From the NCBI GenBank assembly GCA_027080775.1, contig JALWPV010000066.1, positions 1 to 48,135 of the forward strand: a stretch of DNA of 48,135 bases, in the 5' to 3' direction. This document shows positions 4,091 through 12,450 of the stretch, piece by piece. Source of the DNA: Acidilobaceae archaeon. GTDB taxonomy: Archaea; Thermoproteota; Thermoprotei_A; Sulfolobales; Acidilobaceae. Under the pieces are notes generated by a model, which had not been told where the DNA came from, ran no database searches, and worked only from the letters and a program-made list of their open reading frames with translations. The stretch's first letter is position 1. The number at the start of each line of letters is the position of its first letter. Made by a program: the position numbers and the translations under genes.

Positions 4091-5673
4091 GGGGCTGGCT
4101 GGGGGAGGAGGACTTCAAGGCCCTACTGAGGGTAGCCAGGTACATGGGCAGGAGCGACGGCTACTCCCTCTTCGAGCTAGACGTCGCCCGCGCTAGGAGG
4201 AACGGGCTCGCCCCAAGGGACGTGCTGGCCCTCCTATCCTCGATCGAGGGTATCGAGCCCTCGGACCTGGAGGCGGTGGAGGAGGCCCTAAAGGCGGAGG
4301 CTGGTGTGAGGCTAGAGTACCAACCAGGCGGGTGGCTGCTGATATCCTCGAGGCTCCGCCTCAAGGAGCTGTTCGAGGGCCTGGGCTTCAGGCCCTCCTA
4401 CGACCCGTCGAGGAGGGCCTTCAGGGTCAGGGCCTACCTCTACCGGGAGGTAGCCGAGCACCTCGCGGGCAAGGGGGTGGTGCTCGATGACAGGCTCGGC
4501 CTCCTATCCGGGGCCAGGATGCCGAGGGCCCCCAGCTTCCAGGGATCCCTGAGGCCCTACCAGAGGGAGGCCCTCGAGGCCTGGGAGCGTAATGGGGGCA
4601 GGGGAGTGATAGCCCTGCCCACGGGCTCGGGTAAGACTGTGATAGCGATAGCAGCAATGGCCAGGCTCGCCGTCAACACCCTCGTGGTTGTCTACACGAA
4701 GGAGCACATATTCCAGTGGATAGAAGCCATCAGGAGGTTCACGGACGCCGGCGCCCTGGTGGGCGCTTACTACAGCGAGGAGAAGAGCCTGAGGCCCATA
4801 ACAGTGACGACATACCAGACAGCCTACAGGAAGCTCGACGTGTTCGCGACGCGCTACGCCCTCGTAGTCTTCGACGAAGCCCACCACCTCCCAGCCGACA
4901 AGTTCAGGGCGATAGCCATAGGCCTGCCAGCCCCCTACAGGATAGGCCTCTCAGCCACCGTGGAGAGGGAGGACGGGAGGCACGAGGAGATATTCCCCAT
5001 AGTGGGGGGAGTCGTATACCACACCAGCCCCGGCAGGCTCACCCAGGAGGGCTACCTGGCCCCATTCCAGATACGCCGCGTCCCCGTGGAGCTGCCGCCC
5101 AAGCTGAAGAGGGAGTACCAGAGGCTCCGCCGCCGCTACAGGGCCCTAGTCGGGGGCCTCAGGTTCGAGGAGGTCCTGAGCCTAGCCAGGAGGGGGGATG
5201 AGAGGGCCATAGAGGCCCTGAGGATCCACTCCCAGATGAGGAGCCTGATATACGAGAACCCGGCGAAGATAGACGCTATAGAGCGCATAGTCCGGGAGGA
5301 GCTATCCAGGGGCTCCAAGATCATAGTCTTCACCCAATACAAGAGGCAAGCCGAGGAGCTAGCCGAGAGGCTGGGGGCGCACCTGATACACGGCGACATG
5401 GACGCCGCCCGCAGGAGGAGGGAGCTAGAGGAGTTCAAGGCCGAGCCAAGCGGGGTCCTCGTGGTAACCACAGTGGGAGACGAGGGCCTAGACATACCCG
5501 ACGCCAACGTAGGCATACTAGCCTCGGGCACAAGCTCCAGGAGGCAGTTCCTCCAGAGGCTAGGAAGGCTCCTAAGGCCGGCCCCCGGGAAGAAGGCGGT
5601 CCTCTACGAGGTAGTAACAGCGGGATCCCCCGAGGAAATGCAGTCAAAGAAGAGGAGGGGCTCAATATACTAG
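4087..5673 (+). CDS. XPB/Rad25-type superfamily 2 DNA helicase
   Basis: ATP-dependent DNA helicase related to eukaryotic XPB, with proposed roles in DNA repair or transcription-coupled unwinding. The start is taken as GTG 4087, giving 528 residues and a 4-nt overlap with the upstream stop; an earlier GTG at 4060 would overlap by 31 nt. The N-terminal ~130 residues resemble the damage-recognition domain. The helicase core follows with Walker A LPTGSGKT (Lys183), DEAH box (Asp263), SATVERED, and in the second RecA domain IIVFTQYKRQ, VVTTVGDEGLDIP and QRLGRLLRP. The RED motif of XPB is visible in SATVERED. No Bax1-like gene follows; a tRNA gene does. Confidence 0.92.
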   Translation: MRGWLGEEDFKALLRVARYMGRSDGYSLFELDVARARRNGLAPRDVLALLSSIEGIEPSDLEAVEEALKAEAGVRLEYQPGGWLLISSRLRLKELFEGLGFRPSYDPSRRAFRVRAYLYREVAEHLAGKGVVLDDRLGLLSGARMPRAPSFQGSLRPYQREALEAWERNGGRGVIALPTGSGKTVIAIAAMARLAVNTLVVVYTKEHIFQWIEAIRRFTDAGALVGAYYSEEKSLRPITVTTYQTAYRKLDVFATRYALVVFDEAHHLPADKFRAIAIGLPAPYRIGLSATVEREDGRHEEIFPIVGGVVYHTSPGRLTQEGYLAPFQIRRVPVELPPKLKREYQRLRRRYRALVGGLRFEEVLSLARRGDERAIEALRIHSQMRSLIYENPAKIDAIERIVREELSRGSKIIVFTQYKRQAEELAERLGAHLIHGDMDAARRRRELEEFKAEPSGVLVVTTVGDEGLDIPDANVGILASGTSSRRQFLQRLGRLLRPAPGKKAVLYEVVTAGSPEEMQSKKRRGSIY

Positions 5674-5782
5674 GGCTGCAGGACACCCGAAATAAAGCCC
5701 CGCCCGCCCGTCCACTCAGAGGGGGCAGCCGGGTCGTCTAGCGGCCCAGGATGCGGGGCTTTGGATAGCGGCCCCCTACCCC

Positions 5783-6382
5783 CTACCCCCGTTTCACTCC
5801 GCAGTCTCTCGTTAGCTTCTCCACTTCATGGGCCACTTTGAATGAATTACGTAACAAAATTAATTTATTGAAGATAAATACGCGATATTTATTCCCGCGA
5901 GAGTAATGATTACAGCTTGCTTCGATTTGATTACAAACATTCATTATAAGCTTTACTACACGCTTAGATGATGTAGTTATTGCTACGCAGAAGTAACACC
6001 CACGCCTTCGTTCGATGTTGCCATCCGAGTCGATGAGACCCTCAATGATACCTAGCAGGGCTTCCAAAGGAACTCTCTTTACATTTTCTTCAAGTTTTTG
6101 AGTGAATTTGGTTAGAGCTAGTATTAAGCATTTGCCACGTACTGATACTATTATCTCGTTATCACGCTTGAACACGTTAGTATTGAATCCTAGAGATGAA
6201 ACTATGCGGGTAAGTTCTTCTGCAATTTTTGACTCGTGAGATCCGAGGAAGAGTCTTAGCCTGTAATCATAGCGTTTCTTATCTATATAGATATTTCCGT
6301 CGCCTAGATAAAATCCGACAGGGTAACCCCATCTATGCTAGCCGACCTTGCTAATCAGCCCTACATAGTCGTCGCATTCCAT
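5783..6382 (-). pseudogene. LAGLIDADG homing endonuclease, amber-interrupted, antisense to its host intron
   Basis: Read on the minus strand from ATG 6382, one frame of 199 codons ends at TAG 5783-5785 inside the intron stem. It carries two LAGLIDADG helices: GFYLGDGNIY (codons 23-32, acidic Asp28) and LLGIIEGLIDSDGNIE (from codon 109, Asp118/Asp120), the layout of a single-chain two-motif homing endonuclease. Codon 15 is TAG (6338-6340). Between it and GTG codon 70 (6175) no ATG, GTG or TTG occurs in frame, so a downstream restart would lose the first motif. A TATA box lies about 33 nt before the ATG. Apart from the amber codon the frame is intact, so inactivation is recent, or the stop is read through. 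Confidence 0.85.
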
Positions 6383-6410
6383 GGGTTCCAAGAGGTCTAG
6401 CAGGAGCAAT

Positions 6411-6420
6411 AATATATAAG
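6411..6420 (-). promoter_or_regulatory. TATA box of the homing endonuclease gene
   Basis: CTTATATATT on the minus strand, within the tRNA intron and about 33 nt upstream of ATG 6382. It would give a very short leader and transcription against the tRNA gene. Confidence 0.5.
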
Positions 6421-6533
6421 CCCTCATGAAGCCTCCAAAAATGGCCGGGGGTAGGGGGTAGGGCCGCTAGAAGAGCCCCCGTGACCGGGGTTCGAATCCC
6501 CGCCCGGCTGCCACTTCCCTTCTCCATTCTCCC

Positions 6534-7400
6534 TTAGGCTGCCTGTGGGGAGAGCCTGGAGGGGTCTAGGGTGTACCCGCTGCATAGGCCCTCCTCGAGG
6601 CAGGCCTTTAGGGCCGCGCCGTTCATTATGGCGTAGGCCTCGCCTCCACGCACTATGACCTCTGAGGCCCCCAGCTTCTCGGCGGCTTCGATGGCCTTGG
6701 CTGGCTCTAGGCTTAGCCGGGCCTTGTAGAGGGGCTCCTCGACCATCCAGGGGTCTGAGAGGTCGTAGTACCTAAGCAGTCTCCCAGCTGCTAGGATGGC
6801 CGCGCCCCTCACGCCGCCGAGTTGTGGGGGTAGTATGTGGGTCGCCGCTATGACGGGCCTCCGCCTGGACTCCTCTGCCAGCAGGCTTGCCACGGTCGAG
6901 ACTGTTGCGGGGTCTAGGTTGGCGAACGGCTCGTCGACGAGGAGTATCCGCGATGGCGTGGAGAGCGCGATGCATAGCAGGAGCTTCTTCGCGGTCCCAC
7001 TGCTCAGGGCCCACGTCCTCCTCTCGAGGAACCCGCTTAGGCCCAGCTTCTCAGCAAGCTCCCAGGCCCTCTCCAAGCTCGCCCCAGCTATTGAGGAGGC
7101 GTACTCTATGTACTCCCTAGCACTCATCCAGTAGGGCAACTCCTCGTCACCTATAAGCCCGGTTACCGGGGGCCTCCGCGGCGCCAGGCCCCTGTAGACC
7201 TCGACTCCACCCACCACGACCCTCCCCCTACTCGGCCTCCGCAGCCCAGCCACTACCTTGAGGAGCGTAGTCTTCCCCGAGCCGTTAGCGCCCAGGAGGA
7301 GCGTCAGCCCCCCGCCGATCCTGAGGGTCACGCCGGCGAGGGCCACAGTGGGCCCGTAGCGGACCCACACGTCCTCCAGCTCCACCACGGGCCCGCTCAC
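6534..7400 (-). CDS. ABC transporter ATP-binding protein
   Basis: Cytosolic ATPase subunit of an ABC transporter, 288 residues. Walker A GANGSGKT spans residues 37-44, the signature is LSSGT (132-136; a variant of LSGGQ), Walker B is RILLVDEP (151-158) and the switch histidine is in AATHI (His188). The C-terminal ~80 residues are an extra regulatory-like domain. The start is taken as GTG 7400 because it overlaps the TGA stop of the permease gene (GTGA). It surely pairs with the large membrane protein encoded just upstream. The substrate is unknown; the ABC-2-like partner suggests export. Confidence 0.92.
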   Translation of the reverse strand: MSGPVVELEDVWVRYGPTVALAGVTLRIGGGLTLLLGANGSGKTTLLKVVAGLRRPSRGRVVVGGVEVYRGLAPRRPPVTGLIGDEELPYWMSAREYIEYASSIAGASLERAWELAEKLGLSGFLERRTWALSSGTAKKLLLCIALSTPSRILLVDEPFANLDPATVSTVASLLAEESRRRPVIAATHILPPQLGGVRGAAILAAGRLLRYYDLSDPWMVEEPLYKARLSLEPAKAIEAAEKLGASEVIVRGGEAYAIMNGAALKACLEEGLCSGYTLDPSRLSPQAA

Positions 7401-10147
7401 AGCTCCCTCCCCCTCCACGAGCCTGCCAGGAGGAGCAGGGGCACCACTACCAGGGCCGCGGCGATATGGTACCAGAGGAGCCTCGGGATCGGAGTGAAGG
7501 GCACCGCCAGCTTCAGCGGCAGGGACTCGAAGGCCAGCTGGGCCCGGATCCCCATGGTAGACACGGCGACCACGGCGGCGGGGGCCGCTACCAGGAGAGT
7601 GTAGGACAGCCTGCCTAGCGCGATGCCCAGCAGGGCCGTGGCGCCTCCATACACCAGCGCCACTATGACACCGCTCGCAAGCGAGCCAGCCACTAGGGGG
7701 TAGAGGGTCTCGAGGGCCACGCTGGGGTCCACGAGCACCCCCAGGAGGATCCTGGCGGAGGCGTATGGCAGGGCCACGAGGGCTACCAGCGAGGCGAGCT
7801 TGTAGGCCTGCAGCCCGGTCCTCCCAGCCCCCAGCAGGTAGAGCCTCCTGTCGAGTCCGGACTCGTGGTGGTAGCCGTAGAGGATAGCGGCTACTATGAC
7901 TGCGTAGAGGGCTAGTATCACGTAGGCCTGCAGGGGTAGCTCCGAGACAGTGAGCAAGAGCGCCCTCGGCGAGATGTTGCTAATGCAGAAGCCGCCGAGC
8001 TTGCAGGGCCTCTGGGCCATGGAGTAGGTGTAGAGTAGGACCCACGCTATAGCGGCTGAGACCGCGTAGAGGTAGCTGGCCTCCAGATGCCACGCCCAGA
8101 GGCCCCCACGCCTCCCACGCACCCAGAAGCCCAGAGCCGCAAGAGCGGCCCCAGCCAAGGCGAGGGCCAGCCCCGGGGCCACGAGGCCCCTCAGGGAATC
8201 CCTGCTACTCGAACCGCGGCCCGAGACGAGCAGGCTCAGCACCCTACAGGCCCTCCCGCCCCGTAGCTCGATGGTTACATTGTAGATCCTGGGATCCCCC
8301 AGGCCCACTCTGCCCGACGAGCTCCCGGCCACGTTCGATGCCGAGGCCCCCCACGATCCCCTTCCCCCCGTCACGTTGACGCTGGCGTTGTAGAAGCACT
8401 CGCCACTAGCAGTTAGCTCGATGCTGTCGCCCCTCCACCCGTACACGTAGAACTCCTGGGCGATGGGCGCGCCCCCTTCGCCGCTGGCTACGACCCTGAA
8501 GCCCCCGGGCACGATGACGCTATGGTATACTACCACCACGCCAGCCCCTAGGGCAAGGGCAAGGAGCCCCAGCGCCGCCAGGGGCCTCCTGGTGGCGTAG
8601 AGGGGCGCAGCCACCGCCAGGGCCAGTAGCGCCGCTGCGCCCAGGGCCCTAGGCCAGCTCAGCCCGGCGCGGGCCTCCAAAGCCAGGAGGCTCGGAGCAC
8701 CAAGGCCCCGGGCCTCCACGAGCCTAGCCGAGAGGGGAGTCCCCGTGAGGCTTCCAACGCTGAGCCAGACATGCCCTGCTCCAGTGGAGTTGGCGAGCCT
8801 CTCCCAGGCGAGGCCAGCCACGACGCTCAGGCCCCTATTCAGGAAGAGGGGGGAGGAGGCCTCGAGCAGCACCCCCCTCGACTTACTGTACACGTAGATA
8901 GTATCCCTGAGCTCGTACGCAGGCACGAGCAGCCTGCCATCGACTCTAACGGCGATTACGCCGCCTACCATCTTTAGAATCCTGACCCCCGCTATGCTGA
9001 GGTTATAGGTCGTCCCATTAATGACGCCGACCCTCCAGTACCTGGGGTGCCCCGAGAGGTAGTGTATAAGGGATAGGTAAGCCTTGTTGGTTATCCACAC
9101 AACGCTGTCATTAACTTTCGCCGTATCATAGCGTGAGAAGCGTGACCTTACCAGTTTAGCTAACCTCAGTGCATCACTAGGCGAGGAGGCGACGAGGACA
9201 GTGTAAGCACTCATGGTTAGCCCTCTAACCGCTGGAGTGCATGTCGTGTCGAAGTAGGGCACTCTCCCGAGGCCCCTCACCGTATAGTTGAGCCTCGTCC
9301 CCACGCTGGTGTTGATGCCATACAGGCCAGCATACCCATCGGGGGCGACGCCATACCTCTTCTCATAGAAGAGCTTGGCCTCCTGGTCCATCGGCTTCTC
9401 GTAGAGGTACATGTACCCCGTACCATTAACGAGTGGGGGGAGGAGGTAGGGGAAGTCCCACTCATAGCGGCCCTCGGAGTCCAGGACGGCCCAGCGCTCC
9501 CAGTCAACACGGCCAGAAGCGCTAACGTTGAACCTCCCGATATACGCGGCTACACCCTCAAAGTGGCCCCTTTTGTAGGTAACGTTGAAGCCCTTGAGGC
9601 TCCCCCTAGCCCCAATGCTAGCCAAGATGTTGCTCGCTAGCCTCCGCGCGGCGCTAGGGGGGCCATAGCATGCTAGCATGGCATTCCTGAAAACTAGGGA
9701 CTCCCGAAGGTTGGTGTTCCACACCTCTACTATGGCATTGATATTGCCAGCGTAGATATAGCAGCTTTCATTATAGAGGGGCGCTTCTAGGGGGCTGACT
9801 CTCACAATCAGTCGGGGCTCGTAGTCTCTGAGACCCAGTTTGCCGGCAACTAGTCCTCCTAGGGCTCTGAGATCGCTGGAGTATGTATTACTTATTGTTT
9901 CGATATTATTTATGAAACTTCCTAGGTGAGAGTAGACTCCTTCGTGGGAGTGAGATTCAATAGGCGTATAGGCATACACGAGTTCTAGAGCCTTGGGGAA
10001 ACCTTGAGGTCTAATCTGAGCTGAAGTTGAAGCCGATGCTAAAAGAGTAGATTGAAATAATAATAGTATAATTGATAAAAAGAATAAAATAAATTTAAAG
10101 TTAGTATTCATGCCTCTATGCAACTTTATCTTCACTACTCTCTTCAC
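7397..10147 (-). CDS. large membrane permease with two extracytoplasmic domains (ABC partner)
   Basis: Unrecognised 916-residue membrane protein. An N-terminal hydrophobic segment (about residues 17-40) is followed by an external domain of roughly 450 residues, two membrane segments near 495-545, a second external domain (about 550-660), and then seven or so membrane segments to the end, resembling an ABC-2 permease. At least a dozen N-x-S/T sequons lie in the external parts, consistent with glycosylation at the cell surface. The first ~40 codons are AT-rich, unlike the rest. The start is uncertain: GTG 10147, GTG 10135 or ATG 10111 are possible. It is coupled to the ATPase downstream and follows the pilin-like gene by four bases. 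Confidence 0.8.
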   Translation of the reverse strand: MKRVVKIKLHRGMNTNFKFILFFLSIILLLFQSTLLASASTSAQIRPQGFPKALELVYAYTPIESHSHEGVYSHLGSFINNIETISNTYSSDLRALGGLVAGKLGLRDYEPRLIVRVSPLEAPLYNESCYIYAGNINAIVEVWNTNLRESLVFRNAMLACYGPPSAARRLASNILASIGARGSLKGFNVTYKRGHFEGVAAYIGRFNVSASGRVDWERWAVLDSEGRYEWDFPYLLPPLVNGTGYMYLYEKPMDQEAKLFYEKRYGVAPDGYAGLYGINTSVGTRLNYTVRGLGRVPYFDTTCTPAVRGLTMSAYTVLVASSPSDALRLAKLVRSRFSRYDTAKVNDSVVWITNKAYLSLIHYLSGHPRYWRVGVINGTTYNLSIAGVRILKMVGGVIAVRVDGRLLVPAYELRDTIYVYSKSRGVLLEASSPLFLNRGLSVVAGLAWERLANSTGAGHVWLSVGSLTGTPLSARLVEARGLGAPSLLALEARAGLSWPRALGAAALLALAVAAPLYATRRPLAALGLLALALGAGVVVVYHSVIVPGGFRVVASGEGGAPIAQEFYVYGWRGDSIELTASGECFYNASVNVTGGRGSWGASASNVAGSSSGRVGLGDPRIYNVTIELRGGRACRVLSLLVSGRGSSSRDSLRGLVAPGLALALAGAALAALGFWVRGRRGGLWAWHLEASYLYAVSAAIAWVLLYTYSMAQRPCKLGGFCISNISPRALLLTVSELPLQAYVILALYAVIVAAILYGYHHESGLDRRLYLLGAGRTGLQAYKLASLVALVALPYASARILLGVLVDPSVALETLYPLVAGSLASGVIVALVYGGATALLGIALGRLSYTLLVAAPAAVVAVSTMGIRAQLAFESLPLKLAVPFTPIPRLLWYHIAAALVVVPLLLLAGSWRGREL

Positions 10148-10151
10148 TCCT

Positions 10152-10634
10152 CTATCCCCTGCAGAGCCCGCAATAACCCCCTAGCGTTGCTGAGACGCTT
10201 GCGTGCGCTTCGCATATGGAGCCGGACGCCCCTATGAAGGCACCTGTATCGCCAGTACCGAACGCGTGAAAGACATATGCGCTGTCTCCAGTGTTTAGCG
10301 GTATCACACCACTCACGCCAGGGTCGTACTGGCTGCACAGGCAGTATGAGAAATCAGCTTCCAGCGGATTCAAGCAGCCCTCACCAGCTACCGCACGGGA
10401 GCTAGCTCCGCCCGCAGACGTCTCGGGAGTAGGTCCTTCTATAGATGCTGTTGCATCGACGAAATTACCATATACATCATGGTCCTTTGCGTAACAGGTC
10501 GTATGAGGCGGCTGCAAAGGCTTAACGCTGGAGGCTCTCGCCGCTGGTGCTAGTAGGATTGCCGTGAAGGCTGCTAGTACCACTATTGCCAGTAGGGGCG
10601 CCGCGATGCCCCCTCTATCGGTTGGCGGCCTCAC
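10152..10634 (-). CDS. Cys-rich secreted protein with pilin-like N-terminus
   Basis: Unrecognised secreted protein, 160 residues from GTG 10634. The N-terminus MRPPTDRGGIAAPLLAIVV has the form of a class III (archaeal type IV pilin) signal, charged residues then RG and about 20 hydrophobic residues, though an ordinary signal peptide cut after ARA is also possible. The mature part has seven cysteines, including YCLC and YCGLC, and is Gly/Ser/Ala-rich. The frame is open to an ATG at 10697, but that codon lies too close to the TATA-like TTTATAGAA at 10704-10714. It heads the operon with the big permease and ABC ATPase, so it may be the cargo or a surface partner. Confidence 0.65.
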   Translation of the reverse strand: MRPPTDRGGIAAPLLAIVVLAAFTAILLAPAARASSVKPLQPPHTTCYAKDHDVYGNFVDATASIEGPTPETSAGGASSRAVAGEGCLNPLEADFSYCLCSQYDPGVSGVIPLNTGDSAYVFHAFGTGDTGAFIGASGSICEAHASVSATLGGYCGLCRG

Positions 10635-10707
10635 GCTGCGGCACCCCCGAGGGGCGCCATATCCCTTTATGAAGGTATTGATATATATATGTATCATTAT
10701 ACAAATT

Positions 10708-11109
10708 CTATAAAGTAGTGCTAGTGCTGGAGTGTGTCTCGGCCGGCCTTTGGCATGGTAGGCCTTCGGCTATGCCTAGGCCGTCGTGGAGTACTATGCA
10801 CTCCTCCTCTAGCATTCTCATGCGTAGGGGGTCCCCTAGCTCGTTCTTCTCTATTACCAGGAGGTCTAGTGGTAGCTGCCTAGGCTTGAGTTTGTATGCC
10901 TCCTCCGCTACTTGTAGTGGGTTGGCCTCGTCTAGTATTAGTATTACGTCGTAGTCACTATAGGGCTTAGGGGTTCCCCTAGCCCTGCTACCTATGAGTA
11001 TTATCGTGGAGCGGGGCTCCCGGAGCTTCAGGCGCTCGGCTAGCCTTGGGAAGGCCTCGTCTAGAGTCTCGAGGTCCTCGCAGAGCCTACGGAGGATCCC
11101 CCGCCGCAT
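10708..11109 (-). CDS. MNT-type nucleotidyltransferase (antitoxin-like)
   Basis: Minimal nucleotidyltransferase of 133 residues. The family fold is shown by GSRARG-x4-YSDYDVIL, with the two metal-binding aspartates in SDYD, and a third acidic position in LPLDLLVIE. MNT proteins paired with HEPN proteins act as antitoxins that modify (AMPylate) the HEPN toxin. The start is taken as ATG 11109, which overlaps the end of the upstream HEPN reading frame by 23 nt; an earlier GTG would only add HEPN-frame residues. Its HEPN partner is broken, so this gene may now be an orphan. Confidence 0.85.
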   Translation of the reverse strand: MRRGILRRLCEDLETLDEAFPRLAERLKLREPRSTIILIGSRARGTPKPYSDYDVILILDEANPLQVAEEAYKLKPRQLPLDLLVIEKNELGDPLRMRMLEEECIVLHDGLGIAEGLPCQRPAETHSSTSTTL

Positions 11110-11543
11110 CCCTGAGCCACCCGAGGATTCTCTCCATGTAGTCAACGCACCTACCCGCTATCCTCGAGTCATAGGTTAGTGTCTTGGAGCCGGGGTAGCG
11201 GGCTATGGTTTAATGGGGGTTAGAGCGTCTGCCAGCGGGTATAGCTCCCCCGGGACGGCTACACCGGCCTCTTCAAGCGTGTATAGCAGCTTTGAGAGGT
11301 CATGCGTGAGCACGTGCACACCAGTCAGGGCTACCTGGAACGCCTTCAAGTAAAGCTCCACGGCCCGCCTGACGGTGGAGCAGGAGGCCCGTTACACGCC
11401 TTCCTCGAGGAGCCTAAGAGCCTCCTGGAGAACTCGGCCCTCTCAACCCACTCAGCCAGCAAATAGACCCTCAAACCCCACGACCCTCTCAACGAGCATA
11501 CCCGGCCCGGCCGGGCCCGAGGGTAAAGCTCCTTGGCGTCCAC
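11087..11543 (-). pseudogene. HEPN-domain toxin, decayed
   Basis: Pieces of a HEPN protein can be read on the minus strand in three frames. From GTG 11543 the frame gives LLAEWVERAEFSRRLL; after a frameshift the next piece reads EALRLLEEGV, TAA, RASCSTVRRAVELYLKAF, then THDLSKLLYTLEEAG; after another shift comes IARYPGSKTLTYDSRIAG and VDYMERILGWLRDAAG up to TAG 11087. The order matches the HEPN pattern: helix with EW..RA, the Q-A-E-K-like helix, THDL, and HYI..RYP, where the tyrosine codons of GVY and HY have become TAA. At least two frameshifts and two stops make it inactive. The gene sits directly upstream of MNT, the usual HEPN-MNT order. Confidence 0.8.
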
Positions 11544-11616: not shown

Positions 11617-12450
11617 TTGAGGACGCCTCGCCTGCTTGCTGTGTCTGTCTTCCTTGTCCTCCTTGTTCTAGTGGCCATTGCGGCCTTGGCTGCCCCTGGA
11701 GGGTATGAAGCCAGCAGGTCTTACAGGGCCGTCTCGGAGTACGTCGTTAGGGGTGTATACAATGGCTCCAGGGTTGATTTGAGGGTCGCCTGCGTGGGGC
11801 GCTTCGAGCTTAGGATGGTAGGCGTTCAAGAGCAGTATAACCTGGTCAAGCTGGAGTCGAGGCTCCTCGAGCCTGTTAGATGCGGAGCTAAAGGCTCCCG
11901 GGGCCCCCTGAACGTGACGCGCATCGAGTCGGAGGCCCGGCGGGCCCTCTACTCTTTCTTCCACCTGGAGGGCGGGAATGAGAGTGTCTTCACCACGTTC
12001 TACTATCAGAGCAGGCCGGGCTCACTCTACATAGCCCCCGGCCTCCTCGAGGACGCTCCAGGCCTCCTCAGGGGTGCTGCGGCGAGGTTCTACTTTGACT
12101 ACAACTACACCACGGGAGCCCTCAAGATGAGGATCCTAACAGTCCATACGATGGCCTCGTCATATGATAGGCGCAGCGGCCTTCTCGAGTACTACCGAAG
12201 CGCGTGGAGGAGCCGCGTGGTGTACCTCAATGGCACCTCGGACTACCTCTACGCCAATAGCTTGGAGGTCAGGTCGGGCCTCCTGCCACCGCTGGCCCTC
12301 TACAAGGGCCTAGTCCTGGAGGTTCTAGCTGCGGCGCTCGCGGCCGTGGCGGTTGGCGAGTACCTCGCTATCAGGAGGCTCCGTGGGAGGATCCCCGTAG
12401 GGGGCGGGGGGTCAGAGGGTCTCCACGCTGACTCCGAGGGACTCGAGTAG
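11617..12450 (+). CDS. secreted membrane-anchored protein of unknown function
   Basis: Unrecognised protein of 277 residues from TTG 11617. It has an N-terminal signal segment (about residues 5-25), an external domain of about 200 residues with five N-x-S/T sequons (NGS, NVT, NES, NYT, NGT) and a C-terminal membrane helix near 225-248, then a short cytosolic tail rich in Arg and Gly. This is the topology of a type I surface protein. Two cysteines (in RVACVG and PVRCGA) could form a disulfide. Its last 39 bases overlap the converging deacylase gene. No family could be assigned. Confidence 0.7.
   Translation: MRTPRLLAVSVFLVLLVLVAIAALAAPGGYEASRSYRAVSEYVVRGVYNGSRVDLRVACVGRFELRMVGVQEQYNLVKLESRLLEPVRCGAKGSRGPLNVTRIESEARRALYSFFHLEGGNESVFTTFYYQSRPGSLYIAPGLLEDAPGLLRGAAARFYFDYNYTTGALKMRILTVHTMASSYDRRSGLLEYYRSAWRSRVVYLNGTSDYLYANSLEVRSGLLPPLALYKGLVLEVLAAALAAVAVGEYLAIRRLRGRIPVGGGGSEGLHADSEGLE

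Follow-up and report, generated by a model that had tools for sequence, protein, structure and literature searches.

A three-gene ABC-2 permease locus of Acidilobaceae and its small secreted cysteine-rich protein: a possible archaeocin system

What do an ABC ATPase, a giant permease of unfamiliar architecture, and a small secreted cysteine-rich protein do together in an Acidilobaceae archaeon? An earlier note on this DNA had suggested that the three genes might secrete or assemble the small protein on the cell surface, or form an antimicrobial, bacteriocin-like export system with two neighboring elements as partners. The stretch of DNA that we analyzed, here called the window, is 48,135 nucleotides long and constitutes contig C66 of a 1.78-Mb genome assembled in 85 contigs.

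Gene layout and conservation of the trio

All three genes lie on the minus strand, the small protein gene (P0003, 10152 to 10634) first, followed by the permease gene (P0002, 7397 to 10147) and the ABC ATPase gene (6534 to 7400). The three intact open reading frames and their tight packing were as the earlier note had described them, with 4 nt between the small protein gene and the permease gene and a GTGA overlap between the permease and ATPase genes. The ATPase has 288 amino acids when read from the GTG at 7400, and its open reading frame reaches back to a GTG at 7418. The small protein has 160 amino acids from its GTG, or 181 from an ATG at 10697. Read directly from the sequence, a TATA-like CTTTATAG box at 10708 to 10715 on the minus strand, which overlaps the upstream MNT gene at its 3′ end, would favor the GTG at 10634 as the small protein start.

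The nearest named record is an Acidilobaceae metagenome-assembled genome (MAG), JALWEW010000050.1, in which the permease is 95% identical; the trio genes are 95 to 97% identical to those of this second MAG. In a comparison with it, dN/dS was 0.15 for the small protein, 0.22 for the permease, and 0.20 for the ATPase, and three neighboring housekeeping-type genes gave 0.03 to 0.10. By these comparisons the trio genes are real, intact, and under purifying selection, yet evolve somewhat faster than the housekeeping-type neighbors. It is the high identity with low dN/dS, together with homologous trios at 23 to 50% identity, that marks the reading frames as more than chance. The same-order trio recurs in other genomes, so the proposal that they belong together as a single conserved unit, which a lack of co-occurrence elsewhere would have spoken against, stands.

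The partners that had been proposed nearby did not follow the trio. Both the MNT/HEPN pair and the secreted protein encoded at 11617 are absent at the trio loci of two other Acidilobaceae genomes (G069 and G213). MNT genes are common, with 5 to 21 per genome, and within 5 kb of ten loci about 0.7 MNT genes would be expected at the base rate versus 2 to 3 seen; we rejected them as partners. In the window the HEPN gene (11220 to 11543), beside the MNT nucleotidyltransferase gene, has a disrupted frame, and the corresponding frame on MAG contig L013 is intact (137 amino acids, 5016 to 5429). The 11617 protein (P0004, 11617 to 12450, plus strand) is a secreted, C-terminally anchored protein of 277 amino acids with no assigned family and a dN/dS of 0.24. 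It is kept in L013, is elsewhere not linked to the trio, and has no detectable relation to the first extracytoplasmic domain of the permease (ECD1; hhalign probability, 0.4%). On the other side of the trio, at 5720 to 6510 on the plus strand, a tRNA gene that ARAGORN missed is apparently interrupted by an insert of about 700 bp. The insert contains an open reading frame that resembles LAGLIDADG homing endonucleases (PF14528/PF05204, weak) and looks partly broken; the L013 tRNA region appears to be without the insert.

A permease of modules that relatives encode separately

The ATPase is the sole part of the trio with a family match, to PF00005 at 9.3e-19. The Walker A and B, signature, and H-loop motifs of ABC_tran are all present (GANGSGKTT, ILLVDEP, LSSG, and ATH), and a C-terminal extension of about 80 amino acids carries a conserved CLExxxC. 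PADLOC gave nothing beyond generic ATPase matches. The 916-residue P0002 matched no Pfam or NCBIfam family at E ≤ 1, ABC2_membrane included, and nothing in PADLOC; its PHROGs matches were all sub-threshold. A PDB sequence search with the permease, ECD1, and the small protein returned nothing credible. One split ABC-2 relative gave a sub-threshold match to PF12730. The view that this is not a described ABC type is supported. The architecture that the earlier note did not recognize is explained by the joining, in one protein, of modules for which relatives have individual genes.

P0002 begins with a signal or anchor helix. Two hydrophilic regions follow, the first of them large, with two transmembrane helices between them, and the C terminus is a transmembrane bundle. 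Of its 14 N-X-S/T sequons, which are candidate glycosylation sites, 13 fall inside the two hydrophilic domains. The first of these, ECD1, spans residues of about 45 to 494 (8666 to 10015, minus strand), and separate ECD1 proteins of relatives align to residues 111 to 493 (hhalign probability, 98.8%). The predicted six-helix ABC-2 core, residues of about 680 to 916 (7400 to 8110, minus strand), contains a conserved CKxGGxC loop. Separate permease subunits align to residues 682 to 873 (hhalign, 98.5%), and a profile built solely from separate ABC-2 subunits matches the C-terminal part of P0002 at an E value of 6.6e-18. Between them lies ECD2, residues of about 545 to 650 (8198 to 8515, minus strand), a predicted beta-sandwich. 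Its hhalign match to the separate ECD2-TM gene is weak (24.5%; E value, 8e-4), so that the correspondence of the two is suggested mainly by position and the predicted beta fold.

Structure prediction of the 916-residue protein, as the earlier note had advised, supports ECD1, ECD2, and the permease core with moderate confidence (AlphaFold2, 18 sequences; mean pLDDT, 67.7). The model places an anchor helix at 15 to 41, ECD1 at about 50 to 490, helices at 498 to 541, a beta-domain at 549 to 644, a further helix at 653 to 675, and a moderately confident permease core at 682 to 910, with an elbow-like element at 682 to 690 and about six helices. It agrees with the module order ECD1, helices, beta-domain, helix, and permease core. 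Foldseek found no specific relative of the P0002 model; the modeled ECD2 weakly resembles GOLD/CBM-type beta-sandwiches. P0002 is thus an ECD1-2TM-ECD2-TM-ABC2 fusion of modules that relatives encode separately.

Full-length copies found with the permease profile are confined to Acidilobaceae, namely the window genome, G214 (whose locus coordinates match those of MAG contig L013), G213 from the same genus, and G069, which has two copies. At every one of these five fused loci, the window included, a small cysteine-rich gene precedes the permease gene and an ATPase gene follows it. A profile built independently from the small protein recovers exactly the permease-profile loci and one extra locus in another family. 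The split form came from a phylum-wide search of a sample of 398 Thermoproteota genomes, in which many matches are MAGs with frameshifts. There, in other Thermoproteota families, the permease occurs as three genes of a five-gene operon that encodes a small secreted protein, an ECD1-TM protein (about 310 to 475 amino acids), an ECD2-TM protein (about 170 amino acids), a six-helix permease (about 240 amino acids), and an ATPase. Presence is patchy, with 4 of the 17 genomes of one family positive, and multiple copies occur. A plasmid search gave no match.

The system is also lost as a unit. In G153, a congener of G069, what is left at the syntenic site is a stop-riddled permease remnant (L035:5621-6549) between flanks that are 83% and 74% identical, with neither a small protein gene nor an ATPase gene. 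Another genome, G359, has an intact orphan ECD1 (L058:6693-8075), a candidate immunity-only gene; neither a small protein gene nor ABC-2 and ATPase partners were detected for it. Several matches were set aside, the small-protein match in G003 (L034, antisense to a kinase-like gene) and that in G079 (L011/L016, antisense to other open reading frames and with many stops) as chance, and those in G465 and G379 as other surface-type proteins with no surrounding trio.

The small secreted protein and its pairing with ECD1

The seven cysteines that had been reported for P0003 were confirmed by count, at positions 47, 87, 98, 100, 141, 155, and 158. The protein has a Sec-type signal followed by a predicted beta-sandwich of about 120 residues. 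Four of the cysteines (47, 87, 141, and 155) are conserved across the family, and the protein has a C-terminal CxxC. P0003 matched nothing in Pfam, NCBIfam, or PADLOC and only sub-threshold entries in PHROGs. The Acidilobaceae small proteins are homologous to those of the f38 family (hhalign, 97.9%), with the four cysteines kept and a recurrent C-terminal GYC(xxC). A model of one relative shows a signal helix and seven strands (pLDDT, 67.9), and the nearest PDB folds found by Foldseek were generic Ig/FN3-like sandwiches, with nothing specific among them.

The protein had been described as pilin-like, with a class III-like signal, and the window copy does have an RGG ahead of its hydrophobic stretch, as a type IV pilin-like or S-layer component might. 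That motif, however, is missing in relatives except the near-identical strain; they have ordinary Sec-type signals, with a basic start, a hydrophobic stretch, and small residues just before the first cysteine. No prepilin peptidase or pilus assembly ATPase or platform gene was seen among the open reading frames read beside the window trio or the trio loci of relatives. The prediction is a beta-sandwich instead of a long N-terminal helix, and the hydrophobic stretch reads as a signal. We rejected the pilin reading because the class III motif is not conserved, and a structural role in a pilus or S-layer is highly improbable.

Even where the ECD2, ABC-2, and ATPase genes are moved, shared, or missing, the cysteine-rich small gene keeps its place next to ECD1, lying immediately upstream of it in all 12 cases (the window, L013, L014, L015, L032, the minus strand of L033, two in L052, L053, L055, L057, and L085). 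The order of the ECD2, ABC-2, and ATPase genes varies (L084 and the plus strand of L033), and they may lie upstream (L052) or be divergent (L090). L052 has two small:ECD1 pairs with one ABC engine; its ECD1s are 62% identical, and its second small gene is frameshifted and followed by an intact second ECD1 (L052:9170-11215). At six further loci a different small secreted open reading frame, which no profile ties to the cysteine-rich family, occupies the slot beside ECD1/ABC-2. The ECD1 and/or ABC-2 proteins of these six loci link in part by BLAST or HMM, the plus strand of L033 by gene order alone. L033 (4278-10069) holds two convergent systems, of which the minus-strand one consists of a small gene, ECD1, and a gene for a 188-amino-acid protein, and the plus-strand one of a frameshifted, different small protein gene with genes for an ECD-like protein, an ABC-2-like protein, a 139-amino-acid protein, and an ATPase. 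Unrelated small open reading frames in one slot suggest exchangeable cargo and a conserved engine. Between divergent copies, identity is 19 to 34% for ECD1 and 29 to 39% for the small protein, versus 37 to 50% for ABC-2 and 35 to 49% for the ATPase, so that ECD1 and the small protein diverge faster than the ABC-2/ATPase engine.

These observations bear on whether the permease and ATPase export the small protein itself. Genetic linkage as a dedicated pair would fit export, and ABC-2 permeases often export. But a Sec-type signal on the small proteins makes a dedicated cytoplasmic exporter unnecessary, and it is ECD1, not the ABC core, that remains next to the small gene. In addition, lactococcin-972-type bacteriocins are Sec secreted although they are encoded beside similar ABC genes (PMC11796350). 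We consider export of the small protein by the pump improbable. The bacteriocin-like part of the earlier functional guess is the best supported, and its pump-as-exporter part is disfavored.

Functional readings and comparison with known systems

At about even chance, judged by analogy, the small protein is a secreted antimicrobial, an archaeocin, with a dedicated ABC-2 self-protection pump. The small protein would leave the cell via the Sec pathway, its signal being removed, and would fold outside as a disulfide-stabilized beta-sandwich. ECD1, anchored at the outer face of the membrane, would be its cognate binding partner, coupled via ECD2 to the ATPase-driven ABC-2 permease, to which it is fused here and from which it is a separate subunit elsewhere. 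The ECD1-ECD2-ABC pump would then capture the small protein at the membrane and either expel it or block its action, protecting the producer. A conserved engine, a faster-evolving receptor, exchangeable cargo, tight pairing, patchiness, duplication, decay, and possible orphan receptors together point to a bacteriocin with its immunity system. Between close strains the small protein has a low dN/dS (0.15), which gives no sign of rapid short-range diversification and counts against an antimicrobial role, and pairing and patchiness would also fit a surface or binding protein. No known bacteriocin or immunity protein showed sequence homology to the components.

The closest anatomical parallel is lactococcin 972, in which the structural gene is followed by two genes of an ABC transporter thought to confer immunity (PMC4055356) and secretion is Sec dependent (PMC11796350). 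The window and its relatives likewise have a small, Sec-type, beta-rich protein, a large membrane protein, and an ABC ATPase in that order in one operon, and the proposed immunity logic is the same. Unlike in lactococcin 972, the mature small domain is about 120 amino acids long with conserved cysteines, the membrane protein has a large ECD1 together with an ECD2 that can be separate, and the system is archaeal. P0003 did not match the lactococcin 972 bacteriocin models (TIGR01653/PF09683), nor did P0002 match the membrane-protein models (TIGR01654/DUF1430), and the window ATPase scored 61.2 bits, below the TIGR03608 cutoff of 254.85. One relative's small protein reached an E value of 0.043 against TIGR01653, at 14.1 bits versus a cutoff of 32.1 and across the signal peptide, and is a lead only. 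On these sequence grounds the trio falls outside the lactococcin 972 family, and the likeness is one of anatomy without established homology. Our literature search found no paper linking archaeal lactococcin-972-like operons; the families may have been listed earlier as archaeocin candidates.

Among archaeal secreted antimicrobial proteins, a likeness of kind can be drawn to the sulfolobicins (SulA/SulB) and halocin C8, for which we know of no such ABC partner. P0003, unlike these, has no Pfam or NCBIfam match; the sulfolobicins are set apart here by description rather than by sequence. Makarova et al. reportedly surveyed uncharacterized archaeal families for archaeocin-like and polymorphic-toxin loci in 2019.

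The main rival to the antimicrobial reading is a maturation or assembly machine, in which the ABC-2 ATPase cycle would move ECD1/ECD2 outside the cell so that the small protein, then a functional surface or redox protein, is folded, loaded, cleaved, or positioned on the surface. NosDFY is a precedent, an ABC-2 permease and ATPase acting on an extracytoplasmic protein, and the engine here would similarly act without transport. Large extracytoplasmic domains coupled to an ABC-2 core, the conserved small:ECD1 adjacency, the conserved cysteines and the C-terminal CxxC, and a match of the ATPase profile to NosF among solved structures are all consistent with such a machine. The ATPase, however, matches NosF no better than it does many other ABC ATPases, a relationship at the general ABC level, and Pfam found no NosD-type beta-helix domain in P0002 or the split ECDs. 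The trio also differs from NosDFY in that the partner is a small secreted protein and ECD1 and ECD2 are unrelated by family search. Six loci with unrelated small proteins in the slot would be odd for a single maturation target, and the distribution is patchy and decaying. We regard maturation as rather unlikely, perhaps one chance among several. An uptake or sensing role, in which the small protein would be a secreted ligand binder such as a metallophore or lectin that ECD1 recaptures, fits the weak GOLD/CBM-type resemblance of the ECD2 model. ABC-2 permeases of this kind are export type, though, importer features are absent, and no conserved substrate gene was seen nearby in the loci read, making this role very doubtful.

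The locus may represent a widespread but undescribed class of archaeocins in thermophilic Thermoproteota, a proposal that we make tentatively and at somewhat less than even chance. Interchangeable beta-sandwich effectors would each travel with their own ECD1 receptor and share a common ECD2/ABC-2/ATPase immunity engine that is fused in Acidilobaceae. Thermophilic archaea have yielded very few known antimicrobial systems, and a module that combines an effector slot, its matching receptor, and a shared engine offers proteins to express and a profile for mining more. Should the system turn out not to be antimicrobial, it would still represent an uncharacterized ABC-2 architecture whose membrane-anchored partner and secreted protein have been kept together across several archaeal families.
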